A DNA stretch of 64,000 nt from Candidatus Saccharibacteria bacterium (GTDB lineage Bacteria; Patescibacteriota; Saccharimonadia; Saccharimonadales; Saccharimonadaceae): NCBI GenBank assembly GCA_016699895.1, contig CP064991.1:620001-684000 (forward strand), written 5' to 3'. The notes beneath the pieces were generated by a model. It was not told the origin of the DNA. It did no database searches and worked only from the letters and a program-made list of their open reading frames with translations. Position 1 is the first letter of the stretch. The number at the start of each line of letters is the position of its first letter. The position numbers and the translations under genes were made by a program. Below are positions 1 to 62,022 of this stretch, one piece after another.

Positions 1-326
1 ATATGATGGATTTCATCAATCCATTCAACGACGCCACCAAAGATCTGATGGGTAAAGACGTTATCGTTCACATTCAGGTCTACGAAGATCGTACTTTCAC
101 CTGGAACAGCCTCGGTCAGCCAGTTGACGATATGATTCGCGAAAAAGCTGGTATCAAAAAGGGTAGCGGCAAGCCTCACACTGACAAAGTTGGCAAAATC
201 ACTCGTGCTCAGGCCGAGGAAATTGCCCAGGCAAAAATGGATCAGTTAAACGCTAACGACCTCGACGCCGCCGTCAAAGTTGTAGCAGGCACAGCTCGTT
301 CGATGGGTGTCGAACTAGTCGACTAA
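1..326 (+). CDS. rplK: 50S ribosomal protein L11 (3' part; 5' end outside window)
   Basis: L11 sits at the GTPase-associated centre of the large ribosomal subunit, bound to 23S rRNA. The visible 107-108 residues cover the end of the N-terminal domain and the whole rRNA-binding C-terminal domain: the YEDRTFTW strand, the AGIKKGSGKPHTDKVGKIT segment and the AGTARSMGVELVD tail are typical of the family. The reading frame is open to the window edge and the first Met codons are internal (family proteins are about 140 aa), so the gene is cut by the window and not truncated biologically. A rho-independent terminator follows, and the next gene is convergent, so L11 is not co-transcribed with L1 as it is in most bacteria. 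Confidence 0.95.
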   Translation, partial: MMDFINPFNDATKDLMGKDVIVHIQVYEDRTFTWNSLGQPVDDMIREKAGIKKGSGKPHTDKVGKITRAQAEEIAQAKMDQLNANDLDAAVKVVAGTARSMGVELVD

Positions 327-29492: not shown

Positions 29493-32400
29493 ATGAGTTT
29501 TGATACAAAGTTTCTAGATAATTACAGAAGTCTCAACGAGGCGCAGCGTCTAGCCGTTGACCAAATCGACGGGCCAGTTATCGTGGTCGCTGGTCCGGGC
29601 ACCGGAAAAACCCAGCTGCTCGCCATGCGCGTTGGCAACATCTTGAGACAAACCGACACCGATCCTAGCAGTATTTTATGTTTGACCTTTACCGAATCCG
29701 CCGCCGCTAACATGACAGAGCGTATGGCCGCCATCTTTGGCCCAACCGCCTACCAGGTCACCGTCAACACCTTTCACGGTCTAGGCTCGGAAATCATTAG
29801 CCGACATAGCGAGCATTTTTATAACGGGGCAATTTTTAAACCTGCCGATGAATTGACCGCTGGTCAAGTGGTTCAGGAAATCCTAGCCGGACTGCCGCAT
29901 TCCAATCCGCTGACCAAAGTTTTCAATGATAAATTCACCTATTTGGACAAGGTCACTAGGGCGATTTCCGACATCAAACGCGCTGGTCTATTGCCCGAGG
30001 AAATGCATCTTTTACTAGAACAAAACCTAGCTTTTTGCCGCCAAGCTAGTCCGATCATTAGCGAAATTTTTGCCGAACGTATTACCAAAAAGACTATAGA
30101 TGCTGCCAGCTCCGTCCTAAACGATCTCGAAACTATAGTGTCTGACTACAAACAACTGAGTTTTGTGAACGAACCACCGCTCGCCGAAGTCATCGTAAAT
30201 AGTTTCAAATCCGCCATTGAAGACGCCGAGACCTCAGGCAAAACCAACTCTCTGACCGCCTGGAAAAAGTCCAATCTAGAGACGAACGACAAAGGCAAAC
30301 ACGTCCTTAAAGACCAGACGAGAACCGAGATCCTCGCCGCCGTCAGCGGTGTGTACGCCGAATATCTGCGGCGTATGGACGTCCATCAACTCTACGATTA
30401 TGACGACATGATCTTGCGCGTCATCCAAGCCGTCGAAACCTCTCCGGCGCTCAAGGCGGATCTACAGGAAAAATACCAATATATCCTAGTCGACGAGTTT
30501 CAGGATACCAACGACAGCCAGATGCGTCTATTAAAAAACCTAACCGATTTCGATAATCATCCCAATGTCATGGTGGTGGGTGACGACGATCAGGCTATCT
30601 TTCGTTTCCAAGGTGCCGACATCTCGAACATCATGTCGTTCCATGACACCTATCCTGATTCTGACCCGATCGTTCTTACTAACAATTATCGTAGTGGTCG
30701 TCATATCCTCGACGCCGCCAGCAATGTCGCCGGGCAGATCGGCGAACGACTCAGCACCAGCCTAGGTTTTGAAAAGCAATTGATCGACGCCAAACCGGTA
30801 GACACCATCGTCCGCCAAGTCCTAGCCAACACCGAGGAGCACGAGAACGCCAATCTCGTTTCGATGATCGAGCAGGAGATAAAGGCCGGACGCAGCCCAG
30901 CTGATATTGCCGTGATCGCGCGTAAACATAAAGACCTAATTAGCCTGTTGCCATTTTTAGCCAAAGCTAATATCCCAGTCAATTACGAACGCGAGAACGA
31001 CGTCCTGGCCAGCGAACCTATCGTCGCCCTTGAACAGCTAGTTCGCGTGGTGATCAGCCTGGCAGGCCGCGAAGATGATATGGTTGACACATTGCTACCC
31101 GAGCTGCTCAGCCATCCAGCCTGGCAATTATCTCCGCAGGACATTTGGCAGATCAGTCTAGCCGCCAACCGCGATCATAAATACTGGCTAGAAATTTTAC
31201 TAGAATACTCCGACCAAACAAAAGCTATCGGCGAATGGATAATTAAAATGAGCGCATTTTCACACCATACGCCGCTCGAAACCATGCTCGATTGGCTGTT
31301 TGGCAATGAAACTGCAGCCGATGAAAGCTTTACTTCGCCACTTTATAAATATTTCTTTGCCGAGGAGCGACTAGCGGGTGATCCGACGGCTTATTTAACA
31401 TTTTTATCGAACATCAGCACCCTGCGCAACGCGCTGCGCGATTATCGCCCAGACAACACTTCTAATCCGTTACTCTACGAATTCTTGAGCCTAATTGATG
31501 CCTACCGATCACTCGGCAAGCGCCTCGTCGCCGTGACGGCTATCGGCGGTCATGATCGGCTAAATCTACTGACCGTACACAAAGCCAAAGGCATGGAATT
31601 TGATAGCGTTTATATCGTCAATGCTTCGTCAAACATGTGGGGACAGAAATCACGCGGTAATAATTCGTCGATTACTTTTCCTGGTAATATGCCGTTTCAG
31701 CCAGCTGGTGATAGTAGCGACGAACAACTACGCTTGTTATTCGTGGCGATGACTCGCGCCAGACGTCAACTGACCATTAGCTCGCATCAGCTCAGCCCGA
31801 CCGGCAAACCGTTGTTGCCGCTAGAATACATCATTGACGACGACACTATAGCTGTCGAATCGTTGCCCGAGCCGACCATTCCGGAACTCGAGGATCAGCT
31901 AGAAACCGCCTGGCACGCAGCTCTAACTAGCACCACCGGCACCGACCAACGTCAAACCTTGCTCGATACGCTATCGGACAAATTAGCACGCTATCGACTC
32001 AGCGCTACCGACCTAAACCGCTTTATCGATATTCCCGACGGCGGACCGCAGGGCTTTTTGATGCAGAGTTTATTAAAATTCCCGAGTGCTCGCACCGCGC
32101 CGCTGGTTTTTGGCACAGCCATGCACGCCACCCTGCAACGCAGCCATACTCACTTGACCGTCCATGGCCACGCTAAACCGCTCGAGGATGTCCTAGGCGA
32201 TTTCGAGACCATACTACGCGGCGAATCACTGAGCGATCGCGATTTTGAGTTCTATTTACAAAAAGGTCTGGACGATCTAAAAGTATTTTACGACCAACGC
32301 ATTTCGAGCTTCACGCCTGCCCAAATGACTGAATTCGATTTCTATAGTGACAATATCATGATAGGCGAGGCGCGCCTCACCGGCAAACTTGACCTGATTG

Positions 32401-32807
32401 ACATCGACAAAGACGACAAAACCCTGATCGTTACCGATTACAAAACTGGCAAAGCGCCGCTATCGTGGAAGGGTAAAACCGATTACGAAAAGATCAAACT
32501 GCACAGGTATCGTCGCCAGTTACTGTTCTATAAATTATTGGTTGAACGATCCTCACAGTTCAAAAATTATACGATGGAACGCGGCGTATTGGAGTTCGTC
32601 GAGCCGGTAGACGGCGAGATTAGACGGCTCGAACTCGACTATAGCGAGGTAGATATGGACGACTTTGTGAACATCATCCACGCTGTCTGGCGGTTCATTA
32701 TGACGCTAGACCTACCCGACATCAGTCAATTTTCGGCAGATTACAAGGGAATTCTAGAATTTGAAGACTTTTTGAGACTTTATTACTCAAATAGTATTGA
32801 CATTTGA
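29493..32807 (+). CDS. UvrD/RecB-type superfamily 1 helicase with C-terminal PD-(D/E)XK nuclease
   Basis: 1104 aa. The helicase has the Q motif LNEAQRLAVDQ, Walker A AGPGTGKTQLL (near residue 33), motif Ia FTESAAANM, Walker B ILVDEFQDTN, motif III VVGDDDQAIFRFQGA, IV LTNNYRS, V LLTVHKAKGMEFDSVYI and VI LLFVAMTRARRQL. The C-terminal 230 residues carry a RecB-like nuclease: ...FGTAMHATLQ, EARLTGKLDLID and VTDYKTGK (the D...D-x-K triad). This fits an AddA/AdnB-like recombination or repair nuclease working without an obvious partner in the window. Start: TAAAAT (29480-29485) ends seven bases before the ATG; a second TATAAT lies at 29470-29475. Confidence 0.9.
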   Translation: MSFDTKFLDNYRSLNEAQRLAVDQIDGPVIVVAGPGTGKTQLLAMRVGNILRQTDTDPSSILCLTFTESAAANMTERMAAIFGPTAYQVTVNTFHGLGSEIISRHSEHFYNGAIFKPADELTAGQVVQEILAGLPHSNPLTKVFNDKFTYLDKVTRAISDIKRAGLLPEEMHLLLEQNLAFCRQASPIISEIFAERITKKTIDAASSVLNDLETIVSDYKQLSFVNEPPLAEVIVNSFKSAIEDAETSGKTNSLTAWKKSNLETNDKGKHVLKDQTRTEILAAVSGVYAEYLRRMDVHQLYDYDDMILRVIQAVETSPALKADLQEKYQYILVDEFQDTNDSQMRLLKNLTDFDNHPNVMVVGDDDQAIFRFQGADISNIMSFHDTYPDSDPIVLTNNYRSGRHILDAASNVAGQIGERLSTSLGFEKQLIDAKPVDTIVRQVLANTEEHENANLVSMIEQEIKAGRSPADIAVIARKHKDLISLLPFLAKANIPVNYERENDVLASEPIVALEQLVRVVISLAGREDDMVDTLLPELLSHPAWQLSPQDIWQISLAANRDHKYWLEILLEYSDQTKAIGEWIIKMSAFSHHTPLETMLDWLFGNETAADESFTSPLYKYFFAEERLAGDPTAYLTFLSNISTLRNALRDYRPDNTSNPLLYEFLSLIDAYRSLGKRLVAVTAIGGHDRLNLLTVHKAKGMEFDSVYIVNASSNMWGQKSRGNNSSITFPGNMPFQPAGDSSDEQLRLLFVAMTRARRQLTISSHQLSPTGKPLLPLEYIIDDDTIAVESLPEPTIPELEDQLETAWHAALTSTTGTDQRQTLLDTLSDKLARYRLSATDLNRFIDIPDGGPQGFLMQSLLKFPSARTAPLVFGTAMHATLQRSHTHLTVHGHAKPLEDVLGDFETILRGESLSDRDFEFYLQKGLDDLKVFYDQRISSFTPAQMTEFDFYSDNIMIGEARLTGKLDLIDIDKDDKTLIVTDYKTGKAPLSWKGKTDYEKIKLHRYRRQLLFYKLLVERSSQFKNYTMERGVLEFVEPVDGEIRRLELDYSEVDMDDFVNIIHAVWRFIMTLDLPDISQFSADYKGILEFEDFLRLYYSNSIDI

Positions 32808-32825
32808 TACAGTATGTGATAAGAT
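32797..32825 (+). promoter_or_regulatory. consensus promoter of the large structured RNA
   Basis: A perfect TTGACA (32797-32802), 17-bp spacer and TAAGAT (32820-32825). The -35 box lies inside the last codons of the helicase gene. This is the only perfect -35 I found in the window. Confidence 0.8.
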
Positions 32826-32831
32826 TTTACA

Positions 32832-33511
32832 CATGTTCTGAACTGAGTCTGACTAGGCACAGCAAAGAATCGTGGTTTTCAGCGCACGCGGGAGTGTCAG
32901 CGACGGGGTGCAGAAGTGCAAATCCTCGTTGGACGTTTAGGCGTCAACACTCGATAGTCTTCTGGATGATTTCCCGAAAGGGATCTCTATCCGAGACTCC
33001 GGCGGAGGTTCGAATGGGACGAGTAATCGGCCCTAGTAGATAGCCAAAGTGCGCGGGCGACAAAAATAGAGTTAGCTACCTGTTTCATAAGGTGGCAATG
33101 CAACAGCAGAAATGCTGCCGGTCAGGTATAGTCTCAATGGTGAGACGGGTAAAATCCTCGACACGCGGTAGATAACGCATGTGTAAAACTCTTTCTTTTG
33201 TCGCCGAAGCTCGCCTCGATGAGAGGCAAAAACTTCCGGGAGTCCCATCCCGGAAGAGCTCCGTAAACTGCTAGCGGCAATCCCCCCGTCGCAGCAAGTC
33301 CGGAGCAGCCGAGTCGGGCGGATCAGGTTCTAGTGCGCCAGAAGGAGTGCACGGAATTACTGGTGCTGCGCGCCAGTCGATTCCCTAACAAGGGAGATCG
33401 TGATCCGTCCGGCTCCGGCCCGACAACAGAGTTACCTAGGTGACTCTGTCATAGAGCCACCTGTAAACGTTTTGAGCTTCGCTCCGTCGCCACAGGTGGC
33501 TATTTTCTTTT
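32832..33511 (+). ncRNA. large structured non-coding RNA, about 680 nt, unidentified
   Basis: No supported protein gene lies here, yet the segment has a consensus promoter, rich local pairing and a strong terminator. Helices seen: a closing pair GAGTC/GACTC (32845-32849 / 33442-33446) and CTAGG/CCTAG (32853-32857 / 33435-33439); CAGCA-GAAA-TGCTG (33104-33117); GTCTC/GAGAC (33131-33146); TTCCGGGA/TCCCGGAA (33234-33255); TCCC-GAAA-GGGA near 32972; CCGGAGC/GCTCCGG (33300-33306 / 33412-33418); CGGATCA/TGATCCG (33319-33325 / 33401-33407); ACAGAGT/ACTCTGT (33426-33449). The conserved blocks I know for RNase P RNA (GAGGAAAGTCC) and for tmRNA (tRNA-like ends, tag ORF) are not found. Short ORFs inside it look fortuitous. 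Confidence 0.65.
33455..33511 (+). terminator. rho-independent terminator of the large RNA
   Basis: A 10-bp stem, AGCCACCTGT (33455-33464) with ACAGGTGGCT (33492-33501), followed by ATTTTCTTTT. Confidence 0.85.
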
Positions 33512-33528
33512 CTGGTACAATATATATG

Positions 33529-34494
33529 ATGAACTTTTGGAATGATTTGCCGCAGCCATTTTTTATTTTGGCGCCGATGGAAGACGTAACGGACGTTGTT
33601 TTTCGTCACGTCGTCAAACAGGCCGCCGCACCCGACGTATTTTTCACCGAGTTCACCAATGCGACCGGCTGGGTGCACGCTGGCCAAAAGGCCATCGGCA
33701 ATCGTCTCGTCAAGGCTGACGATGAATATCCATTAGTCGCCCAGATCTGGGGCGGGGAACCAGGCGATATGGAAAAGCTGGCGGCGCATTGCCTCGAACT
33801 TGGTTTTCACGGTATCGATATCAACATGGGCTGTCCCGCGAAATCGGCCGTCAAATCGGGCGGTTCGGCCTTGATCCGCAAACCCGATATCGCCGTTGCC
33901 TCGATTGCCGCCGCTAAAACCGCCGGGTTGCCAGTCAGTGTCAAAACTCGTCTCGGTTATACGTCCGTAGAAGAGTGGCGCGAGTGGCTCACGGTTCTAT
34001 TGCAACAGGACATTGTCAATCTGACGATTCATTTACGCACCAAAAAAGAAATGAGCAAAGTTCCAGCCCATTTTGACTTGATCGACGACATCATTGCACT
34101 TCGCGACCAAATCGCTCCGCACACGAAACTGACCATAAACGGCGATATAGCCGACCGACAACAGGGAATGAAATTGCATCAGGATCATCCCGGTATTGAT
34201 GGCATCATGATCGGACGCGGCATTTTTCATAATCCATTTGCGTTTGAAAAAGAGCCGCGAACCCATGACCAACAGGAACTCCTCGATCTACTAGGCATCC
34301 ATTTAGATTTGTTTGATCAATATAATATCGATATGTCGCGCAGATTCGATCCCTTGAAACGCTTTTTCAAAATCTATGTCAAAGATTTTCCCGGTGCCAA
34401 GGAAATGCGCGAGCAATTGATACAGGCGACAACTACCAACGAAGCTCGCGCCATTATTGCATCAGCGCTGGCGGCGACTATGACGGCGCCGTAA
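33529..34494 (+). CDS. dus: tRNA-dihydrouridine synthase
   Basis: FMN enzyme reducing uridines in tRNA loops. Motifs: LAPMEDVTDVVFR at the N-terminus, the catalytic Cys in DINMGCPAKSAVKSGG, VKTRLGY, and the FMN-phosphate site NGDIADR...GIMIGRGIFHNP. 321 aa. The start is ATG 33529, seven bases after TACAAT (33516-33521) with TGG before it; the adjacent ATG at 33526 is possible. A longer reading back to 33400 would run through the RNA terminator and is rejected. Its last 33 bases overlap the convergent plsC gene. Confidence 0.93.
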   Translation: MNFWNDLPQPFFILAPMEDVTDVVFRHVVKQAAAPDVFFTEFTNATGWVHAGQKAIGNRLVKADDEYPLVAQIWGGEPGDMEKLAAHCLELGFHGIDINMGCPAKSAVKSGGSALIRKPDIAVASIAAAKTAGLPVSVKTRLGYTSVEEWREWLTVLLQQDIVNLTIHLRTKKEMSKVPAHFDLIDDIIALRDQIAPHTKLTINGDIADRQQGMKLHQDHPGIDGIMIGRGIFHNPFAFEKEPRTHDQQELLDLLGIHLDLFDQYNIDMSRRFDPLKRFFKIYVKDFPGAKEMREQLIQATTTNEARAIIASALAATMTAP

Positions 34495-61576: not shown

Positions 61577-61605
61577 AACCAGTTCACTTTTCAAATCTAA
61601 CCTGT

Positions 61606-61643
61606 TATAATATGAAAGCGGTCTCATACTAGAGGTATGAGAC
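61606..61643 (+). promoter_or_regulatory. promoter and leader hairpin of tRNA-Glu
   Basis: TGtTATAAT (TATAAT 61606-61611) is followed at the expected start by a 9-bp hairpin, GTCTCATAC/GTATGAGAC (61621-61629 / 61635-61643). Its left arm copies the first bases of the tRNA (GGTCTCAT). About 70 more leader bases follow, including a second hairpin near 61655-61680. Confidence 0.55.
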
Positions 61644-61712
61644 GGTTGCACTTCGGAAATAACGACAAAAATATGTGAGCACATTTTTGCTCGTTTATTT
61701 CTCTCATTGCTA

Positions 61713-61787
61713 GGTCTCATCGTCTAACGGTTAGGACATCAGGTTCTCATCCTGACAATCGGGGTTCGATTCCCCGTGAGATCACCA
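61713..61787 (+). tRNA. tRNA-Glu (anticodon CTC)
   Basis: Acceptor GGTCTCA/TGAGATC (one G-U), D arm with AACGGTTAGGA, anticodon stem TCAGG/CCTGA around TTCTCAT (anticodon CTC), T loop TTCGATT, discriminator A and encoded CCA (61785-61787). It lies amid signalling genes. Confidence 0.95.
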
Positions 61788-61825
61788 GTGAAAGCGCCCC
61801 AGTTTATCTGGGGTGTTTTCACTGG
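61785..61825 (+). terminator. terminator after tRNA-Glu
   Basis: CCCCAG (61797-61802) and CTGGGG (61808-61813) form the core stem, extended outward by CCAGTGAAA/TTTTCACTGG. A T stretch lies in the right arm. Confidence 0.75.
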
Positions 61826-61827
61826 TA

Positions 61828-61932
61828 GGGTTTCTACAGGAAACCCAAACCACGAAGGGGTCCGGCGTAGCGCAGTGCAGAAAAATTAGCTCGCTCATTT
61901 TTCAAACAAGCGGAGGAGCGCAGCGATTTCCC
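61828..61932 (+). repeat. tRNA-linked dispersed element, copy B
   Basis: A 7-bp hairpin GGGTTTC/GAAACCC (61828-61846) followed by CGGCGTAG, a GAAAAA block, a TTTTT block, GCGGAGGAGCG and CAGCGATTTCCC, the same order as copy A after tRNA-Gln (23125-23244). A 62-codon frame at 61813-62001 crosses it and is probably not a gene. Confidence 0.5.
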
Positions 61933-61991
61933 CTAGATAGGGTATTCTACCGATTGCTCATTTTTGAACGAGGAAGTTTTATACCTATGGT

Positions 61992-62007
61992 ATTCCCGTG
62001 AGATCGC
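61992..62007 (+). repeat. partial copy of the tRNA-Glu 3' end
   Basis: ATTCCCGTGAGATCGC repeats the tRNA's 3' sequence ATTCCCCGTGAGATCACC (61769-61786) with a one-base gap and one change, 220 bases downstream in direct orientation. This is what an integration or excision scar at a tRNA attachment site would look like. Confidence 0.45.
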
Positions 62008-62022
62008 TGTTACAATATAAAA

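Follow-up and report, generated by a model that had tools for sequence, protein, structure and literature searches.

The stretch of DNA analyzed here (the window) comprises 64,000 nucleotides of a Candidatus Saccharibacteria bacterium (GenBank assembly GCA_016699895.1, contig CP064991.1, positions 620,001 to 684,000); members of this group have very small genomes and grow as epibionts on other bacteria. Between the genes for a UvrD-like helicase-nuclease and for a tRNA-dihydrouridine synthase (dus), both of which were recognized by Pfam profiles where the original prediction had placed them, lies a predicted RNA gene of ~700 nt on the forward strand, whose ends we infer from a promoter and a terminator. 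The region is ORF poor: nowhere else in the window does so long a run (positions 32808 to 33399) lack ORFs of at least 80 amino acids (aa); the runner-up in this respect (61577 to 62022) contains a tRNA-Glu. The features of the locus are listed below in the coordinates of the window, with L001 denoting the homologous locus described further on.

29493 to 32807, forward strand: upstream neighbor, a UvrD-like helicase with a PD-(D/E)XK nuclease domain (Pfam PF00580, PF13361, and PF12705)
32797 to 32825, forward strand: sigma-70-type promoter, TTGACA-17-TAAGAT with an extended -10 element, overlapping the last codons of the uvrD-like gene
32832 to 33511, forward strand: large structured RNA (fold z score, no Rfam match, homolog in L001, and pairs changed on both sides)
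32832 to 32874, forward strand: 5' hairpin domain, CAUGUUCU...AGAAUCGUG with inner GUCU/AGGC (predicted fold)
32882 to 33054, forward strand: domain closed by GCGCAC/GUGCGC, including the most conserved block of the molecule, ~32994 to 33057 (fold and alignment with L001)
33004 to 33043, forward strand: GGAGG, 5 nt, and the ATG of a candidate micro-ORF, MGRVIGPSR* (ORF, 33014 to 33043; MGRAIGPSR* in the alignment with L001)
33056 to 33205, forward strand: hypervariable domain with the stem 33056-33073/33187-33205, small hairpins, and one GAAA loop (alignment with L001 hardly possible in the interior)
33258 to 33306, forward strand: hairpin with the C-rich apical loop AAUCCCCCC (33279 to 33287)
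33308 to 33419, forward strand: 3' junction domain with the 14-bp stem 33312-33325/33401-33414 (predicted fold and alignment with L001)
33455 to 33511, forward strand: terminator-like hairpin and T-rich tail (corresponding hairpin in L001)
33526 to 34494, forward strand: downstream neighbor, dus, tRNA-dihydrouridine synthase (Pfam PF01207)

Both transcription signals that had been proposed for this RNA were found. The promoter had also been ranked as the best in the window, which did not hold, since two others score 11/12 and a perfect TTGACA is found in another two; the terminator described as canonical corresponds to the terminator-like hairpin and T-rich tail at the 3' end. This end lies ~15 nt upstream of the dus start codon (33526). 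At 33513 to 33530, TGGTACAAT is like an extended -10 element, and 4 nt separate its end from the dus ATG, so that the dus mRNA may be leaderless and started directly behind the RNA terminator. TANNNT occurs at most 18 nt from dus in 57 of 109 loci (a raw count, with no control).

Fold and domains of the window RNA

The strong stems noted in the original prediction were borne out by folding, with a predicted energy of -297 kcal/mol for the RNA, as opposed to -231.6 kcal/mol (standard deviation, 7.1) for 20 dinucleotide shuffles (z = -9.2). In a second test with eight shuffles, the window RNA reached a z score of -8.0, the dus coding sequence of the window one of -0.3, and the strongest of 13 coding controls one of -3.4. 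The predicted molecule is a chain of hairpin and junction domains, and the two GAAA tetraloops that had been pointed out are present at 32976 to 32979 and 33109 to 33112.

The candidate micro-ORF has nine codons and lies within the most conserved block of the RNA. Its sole change relative to L001 alters the amino acid; selection on the peptide is thus not demonstrated, and we list it as a candidate only. ARAGORN recovered no tRNA in the window RNA, which also has no Shine-Dalgarno ORF of 35 to 70 aa. A tRNA-like module around the conserved T-loop-like word GGTTCGAAT was considered and dropped, as the word overlaps the GGAGG-ATG of the micro-ORF and no T-stem was seen.

Comparison with known RNA families and the literature

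Scanning the window with cmscan against all Rfam families recovered, at gathering scores, three ordinary tRNAs elsewhere and no match at 32832 to 33511. Up to an E value of 10, the window RNA and L001 gave one match each, far below the gathering score, and both were taken as chance: snoU2-30 in the window RNA (E = 2.9) and SMAD5-AS1_1, antisense, in L001 (E = 6.6). A comparable scan of 20 loci up to E = 0.05 recovered five tRNA matches and two matches below the gathering score. One of the latter, to Plastid-ycf2 (RF04354), runs antisense over the tRNA-like module of L174 and was likewise taken as chance; the other is a sense match to RsmW (RF02809) in L199 at 131 to 302 (minus strand; 35.8 bits, gathering score of 52, E = 0.021), which lies below the cutoff and would suggest a possible CsrA/RsmA link. 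GOLLD, ROOL, and OLE gave no match in the window RNA and L001 up to E = 10, in 10 loci at gathering scores, or in 20 loci up to E = 0.05. Blastn searches with the window RNA against phage and plasmid records recovered no match, and exact patterns derived from two conserved blocks were not found in viral contigs.

Among the matches listed by our literature searches, those on Saccharibacteria noncoding RNA included no title on a uvrD-dus RNA, and those on the Nanosynbacter lyticus transcriptome or noncoding RNA and on noncoding or structured RNA of Patescibacteria included none of relevance (for the last, as judged by title). No paper was found on Saccharibacteria with tRNA-like or dual-function RNA or on TM7x with small RNA. 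The terms Saccharibacteria, TM7, dihydrouridine, and Candidate Phyla are absent from the main text of a large survey of structured RNAs from human microbiomes (PMC8040213); the supplements of that survey may list an unnamed candidate.

A homolog with compensatory changes

The nearest relative of the window RNA that we found is in Saccharibacteria MAG17 (genome G001), at the locus L001, where dus and uvrD are both ~86% identical to those of the window. The RNA at the same place between them is 66% identical to the window RNA over 830 columns, has a promoter with the same -35 hexamer and spacing (TTGACA-17-TAATAT) and a terminal hairpin at the same place, and folds with a z score of -9.5. Conservation between the two is uneven. 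A 64-nt block (32994 to 33057) differs at one position, GGCACAGCAAAGAATCG of the 5' hairpin domain is unchanged, and 142 of 170 ungapped columns (84%) are identical in the 3' hairpin and junction; the middle (~33080 to 33230) is barely alignable.

The pattern of substitutions follows the predicted pairing. When the fold of the window RNA was applied to L001, 14 pairs changed on both sides were kept, versus 5.0 upon permutation, and 44 pairs were broken, versus 60.1; none of 1,000 permutations was as good. The reverse test, with the L001 fold applied to the window RNA, gave 11 both-side changes versus 4.6 and 38 broken pairs versus 50.0. RNAalifold predicted 186 pairs for the two sequences together, 15 of them changed on both sides. 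Among other locus pairs, both-side changes were in excess for L019/L024 and L059/L056 and, in one direction only, for L003/L009, with no excess for L041/L043, L011/L030, and L179/L180; broken pairs were fewer than expected in most of these pairs. That positions 32832 to 33511 constitute a structured, independently transcribed RNA gene without an Rfam family is well supported, by the computed structure, the homolog with its compensatory changes, the conservation of the locus (see below), the outcome of the Rfam scan, and the promoter and terminator of its own; the original prediction of a structured RNA outside the recognized classes stands in this form.

Searches for further homologs by sequence reached little beyond L001. 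Blastn searches with the window RNA against 392 genomes of the order (E = 0.001) matched only G001. With L001 as the query (E = 0.05), 19 of 394 genomes of the family matched; the best matches besides G001 (L094 and L095) were dropped, being isolated words of 25 to 31 bases with no uvrD or dus nearby. At most two candidates were scored per genome in both scans. A covariance model of the 3' domain of the window RNA recovered only G001 among 382 genomes of the class (under stricter Infernal filters); in 100 local sources, it gave no convincing match.

The uvrD-dus locus across Saccharibacteria

A dus protein search yielded 80 loci, some of them from Bacillota, and with 60 more stretches we obtained 109 distinct dus-upstream sequences, including the window; the uvrD end is recognizable in 91. 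The 18 sequences with no recognized uvrD end were excluded from the helix, fold, loop, ORF, and promoter counts, as were gaps of <300 or <400 nt. uvrD and dus are adjacent in most Saccharibacteria loci in which the contig reaches far enough. Their distance is 236 to 2,348 nt in 84 of the 91 loci, with some of the longest gaps containing further genes (e.g., L021 and L061), and 12 to 19 nt in the other seven (L147, L156, L160, L170, L184, L187, and L193).

Most gaps have no blastn match to most other gaps. Of 83 gaps, 58 begin with a promoter scoring at least 10/12, versus 3.4 expected, and nine of these promoters are perfect; the scan included 70 extra bases, and trimming at the uvrD stop gave 20 of 83 at the same score and missed the promoter of the window itself. 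Relative to shuffles, 78 of 83 gap RNAs (up to 900 nt; eight shuffles per RNA; standard deviation floor of 3) fold more strongly than every one of the 13 coding controls. Position between a uvrD-like gene and dus, a promoter of its own, and a strong fold, by which we delimit a class of uvrD-dus RNAs, are all found in the window.

Two side observations concern the neighboring genes. The UvrD-like nuclease of the window (29493 to 32807), 86% identical to that of L001, is mostly ~40 to 46% identical to those of other Saccharibacteria loci, and dus is mostly 60 to 72% identical. In L020, L022, L027, and L031, an extra small gene (66 to 85 aa) lies between the RNA and dus, and the C-terminal ends of its products are related (TPEDLSYSA, MPDGLTYSA, DPEGLSFSA, and TPEDLNWSA).

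A helix joining the RNA ends

Many gaps carry a CATTGACAGAGATAGTGA-like word ~100 nt from their start, and in many the reverse complement of its second part sits right before the terminal hairpin. We assembled 30 loci with this closing helix, selected for pairing and shared words, and the following figures describe those loci rather than the whole set: each of 11 closing positions is paired in 23 to 30 of the loci, through two to five types of pair; covariation extends to the terminal hairpin; and in 21 of 30 cases, no other 3' strand scores higher with a 5' strand than the one from the same locus (mean score, 33.5 versus 20.0 across species). If helix score is the only criterion, 21 of 83 loci lie above the 95% level (33.35) of block-shuffled controls, and three of these (L047, L025, and L189) have other helices. 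Part of the 30 loci lie below this level and were taken for their shared words and the place of the helix beside the terminal hairpin; L037 shows a helix and is excluded from the 30-locus counts. With fixed end windows, 11 of 48 loci scored above the 95% control level, and with a terminator finder, 7 of 23 scored above the 99% level. These two approaches overlooked many loci, in part because another small gene stands between the RNA and dus in several genomes. A start-site helix considered in L002 and L008 scored no better than controls and was rejected.

The window is not among the 30 helix loci. The closing helix originally predicted for it, linking the two ends of the RNA, was not supported: the candidate that we found, 32842-32857/33435-33449, has pair probabilities of at most 2.6 × 10−6 and costs 8.2 kcal/mol if forced, being disfavored because its 3' strand lies in a hairpin of its own.

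tRNA-like modules, small ORFs, and C-rich loops

ARAGORN recovered 34 tRNAs in 27 of the 109 upstream sequences, five of them in sequences with no recognized uvrD end; one, in L194, lies on the antisense strand and could be an ordinary gene. Among the other 33, which we term tRNA-like modules, 12 have an A as the first anticodon base (aaa, acc, aca, act, atc, agc, agg, and att), nine have two- or four-base anticodons, and 12 look normal. To our knowledge, A34 is hardly used by bacteria except in tRNA-Arg, and together with the odd anticodons this makes most of the modules unlikely to be ordinary decoders. In L010, L034, L036, and L151, they lie within the helix-closed part. T-loop words of the form GTTCGA(A/C/T)(T/C) occur in 35 of 82 gaps, versus 7.0 in shuffles.

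Shine-Dalgarno ORFs of 35 to 70 codons were found in 41 of 82 gaps, versus 9.6 expected, a count that includes some downstream of the terminal hairpin of the RNA (e.g., in L029). The strong Shine-Dalgarno sequence of these mini-ORFs is often GGAGGUGA, and GGAGGTGA occurs in 25 of 82 gaps, versus 1.0 expected (its complement, 3 versus 1.8). The gap ORFs form several families without mutual match, and the families recur between loci. Pfam searches with four gap ORFs recovered no match; one gap ORF searched against 5.8 billion proteins had two matches, both 98% identical, one of them named a hypothetical protein of a Saccharibacterium. CxxC- and GxG-rich mini-proteins are encoded by gap ORFs of L002, L019, L024, L025, L026, L042, L049, L056, and L140 and may resemble the zinc finger region of DnaJ. 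Between L002 and L008, both ends and the tRNA-like module are 83 to 90% identical, and the stretches between them differ and carry different ORFs, a pattern that looks like cassette exchange.

In the predicted folds of 82 RNAs, there are 54 CCCC apical loops, versus 14.0 expected from shuffles, distributed over 37 of the RNAs, whereas AAAA (45 versus 47) and UUUU (19 versus 17) loops are not enriched. GGGG apical loops are also enriched (9 versus 0.7), and 45 of the 82 RNAs are predicted to fold without any CCCC loop; given both observations, the C-rich loops may serve other contacts than the one considered below. The window RNA and L001 share the C-rich loop trait, with AAUCCCCCC kept in both.

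Identity of the window RNA

We regard the uvrD-dus RNAs as a new, fast-evolving class, new in that no described RNA family matches them and in kind still large structured bacterial RNAs. That the window RNA is a strongly diverged member of this Saccharibacteria-wide class is our main reading, to which we assign a probability of roughly 0.55. Since the 3'-domain covariance model matches only the genome of L001, membership rests on position and architecture rather than on sequence, and we infer homology to the other occupants from position, direction, promoter, size, degree of folding, and the C-rich loop. A lineage-specific structured RNA that replaced the other occupants, with the RNAs of the window and L001 not homologous to them, is a weaker contender that we consider rather doubtful. 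It would account for the lack of any sequence or covariance match beyond L001 and for a window RNA that has a different terminal hairpin and neither closing helix, Shine-Dalgarno ORF, nor tRNA-like module; however, position, direction, promoter position, size range, folding degree, and the C-rich apical loop all agree with the other occupants, most of which likewise have no blastn match to most of their relatives. A diverged housekeeping RNA, in particular the RNase P RNA with insertions raised in the original prediction, is extremely improbable. The words GTAAAC and GCAAG that had suggested it are present, but both lie inside the hairpin at 33258 to 33306, and the likeness to RNase P RNA (RF00010) and tmRNA (RF00023) is one of size class and general structuredness only. 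No covariance model of RNase P RNA and neither RF00023 nor ARAGORN in the case of tmRNA matched the window RNA; G001 has an RNase P RNA and a tmRNA of its own (254 and 57.5 bits, respectively) on another contig than L001, and both RNAs were found over the cutoff elsewhere in all nine genomes searched, G001 included, which refutes these two identities.

Possible mode of action

As to mechanism, we favor a dual-function RNA that acts on translation in the general manner of Staphylococcus aureus RNAIII, though as a possibility that is itself somewhat unlikely. RNAIII has 514 nt, many hairpins, and long-range helices. In the accessible part of the source, its C-rich hairpin loops are described as docking on ribosome-binding sites and the RNA as having a dual function with a small ORF (PMC2837412). 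The uvrD-dus RNAs are similarly free-standing RNAs, with predicted C-rich hairpin loops and candidate small ORFs in many of them, and we claim no homology; they differ in their locus and in their tRNA-like modules, and the window has a micro-ORF candidate only. The RNA, predicted to be transcribed from its near-consensus promoter, to end at its own terminator, and to fold, in the window, as a chain of long hairpins and junctions, would by this analogy use its C-rich apical loops (AAUCCCCCC in the window) to bind target mRNAs at their G-rich Shine-Dalgarno regions. Many members also bear a strong Shine-Dalgarno sequence with an ORF of ~50 codons, a tRNA-like module, or both, and in the 30 helix loci the predicted helix joins both RNA ends; in the window member, the nine-codon micro-ORF is the only ORF candidate.

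Two other mechanisms are each improbable in our view, and the second of them only marginally less so. The RNA might be a large ornate scaffold or RNA particle like GOLLD and ROOL, with tRNA-like pieces and mini-mRNAs as linker cargo and with a sequence that drifts while the architecture holds. GOLLD and ROOL are described as large ornate RNAs of unknown function, with the GOLLD linker sometimes containing tRNAs (PMC12286853, in the part accessible). The size and hairpin arrays of the uvrD-dus RNAs, the end-joining helix around a hypervariable interior, and the tRNA-like modules inside the closed part of four loci fit such a scaffold, whereas the absence of Rfam matches to GOLLD, ROOL, and OLE, the fixed place between a uvrD-like gene and dus in lieu of a phage or prophage tRNA island, and mini-ORFs with strong Shine-Dalgarno sequences, which suggest translation, speak against it. 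Alternatively, these could be structured mRNAs, that is, long untranslated frames around a small protein gene with a structure that serves stability, of which the lineage of the window lost the ORF or keeps a micro-ORF only. The excess of Shine-Dalgarno ORFs, the recurrence of their families between loci, and the annotated hypothetical-protein copy of one family are in line with this, but the other half of the RNAs, including that of the window, have no such ORF, several ORF families that do not match one another occur while the frame persists, and hundreds of structured bases exceed the needs of translation.

For the locus as a whole, we tentatively suggest that one chromosomal site keeps a strongly expressed, hypervariable RNA with a frame of promoter, 5' hairpin, end-joining helix, and terminal hairpin, the interior of which would be swapped like cassettes between species. 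The cassettes would comprise tRNA-like modules, most of them unable to decode, mini-genes from several protein families, preceded by very strong Shine-Dalgarno sequences, and hairpins with C-rich loops. The speed of change would suggest either an arms race or a partner specific to each species, such as perhaps the bacterium on which the epibiont lives, and the ribosome would be the likely contact point. We consider this picture possible rather than probable.

That a predicted RNA gene of ~700 nt should persist at a single site in most of the genomes sampled and yet be hardly alignable among them points to an important, unstudied function. Given the tRNA-like modules with odd anticodons and the mini-genes with strong Shine-Dalgarno sequences, a link to the ribosome can be tested directly. 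One locus (L009) belongs to a contig with the name Nanosynbacter, and L016 and L030 are in oral TM7 genomes, so that tests in cultured relatives are feasible.
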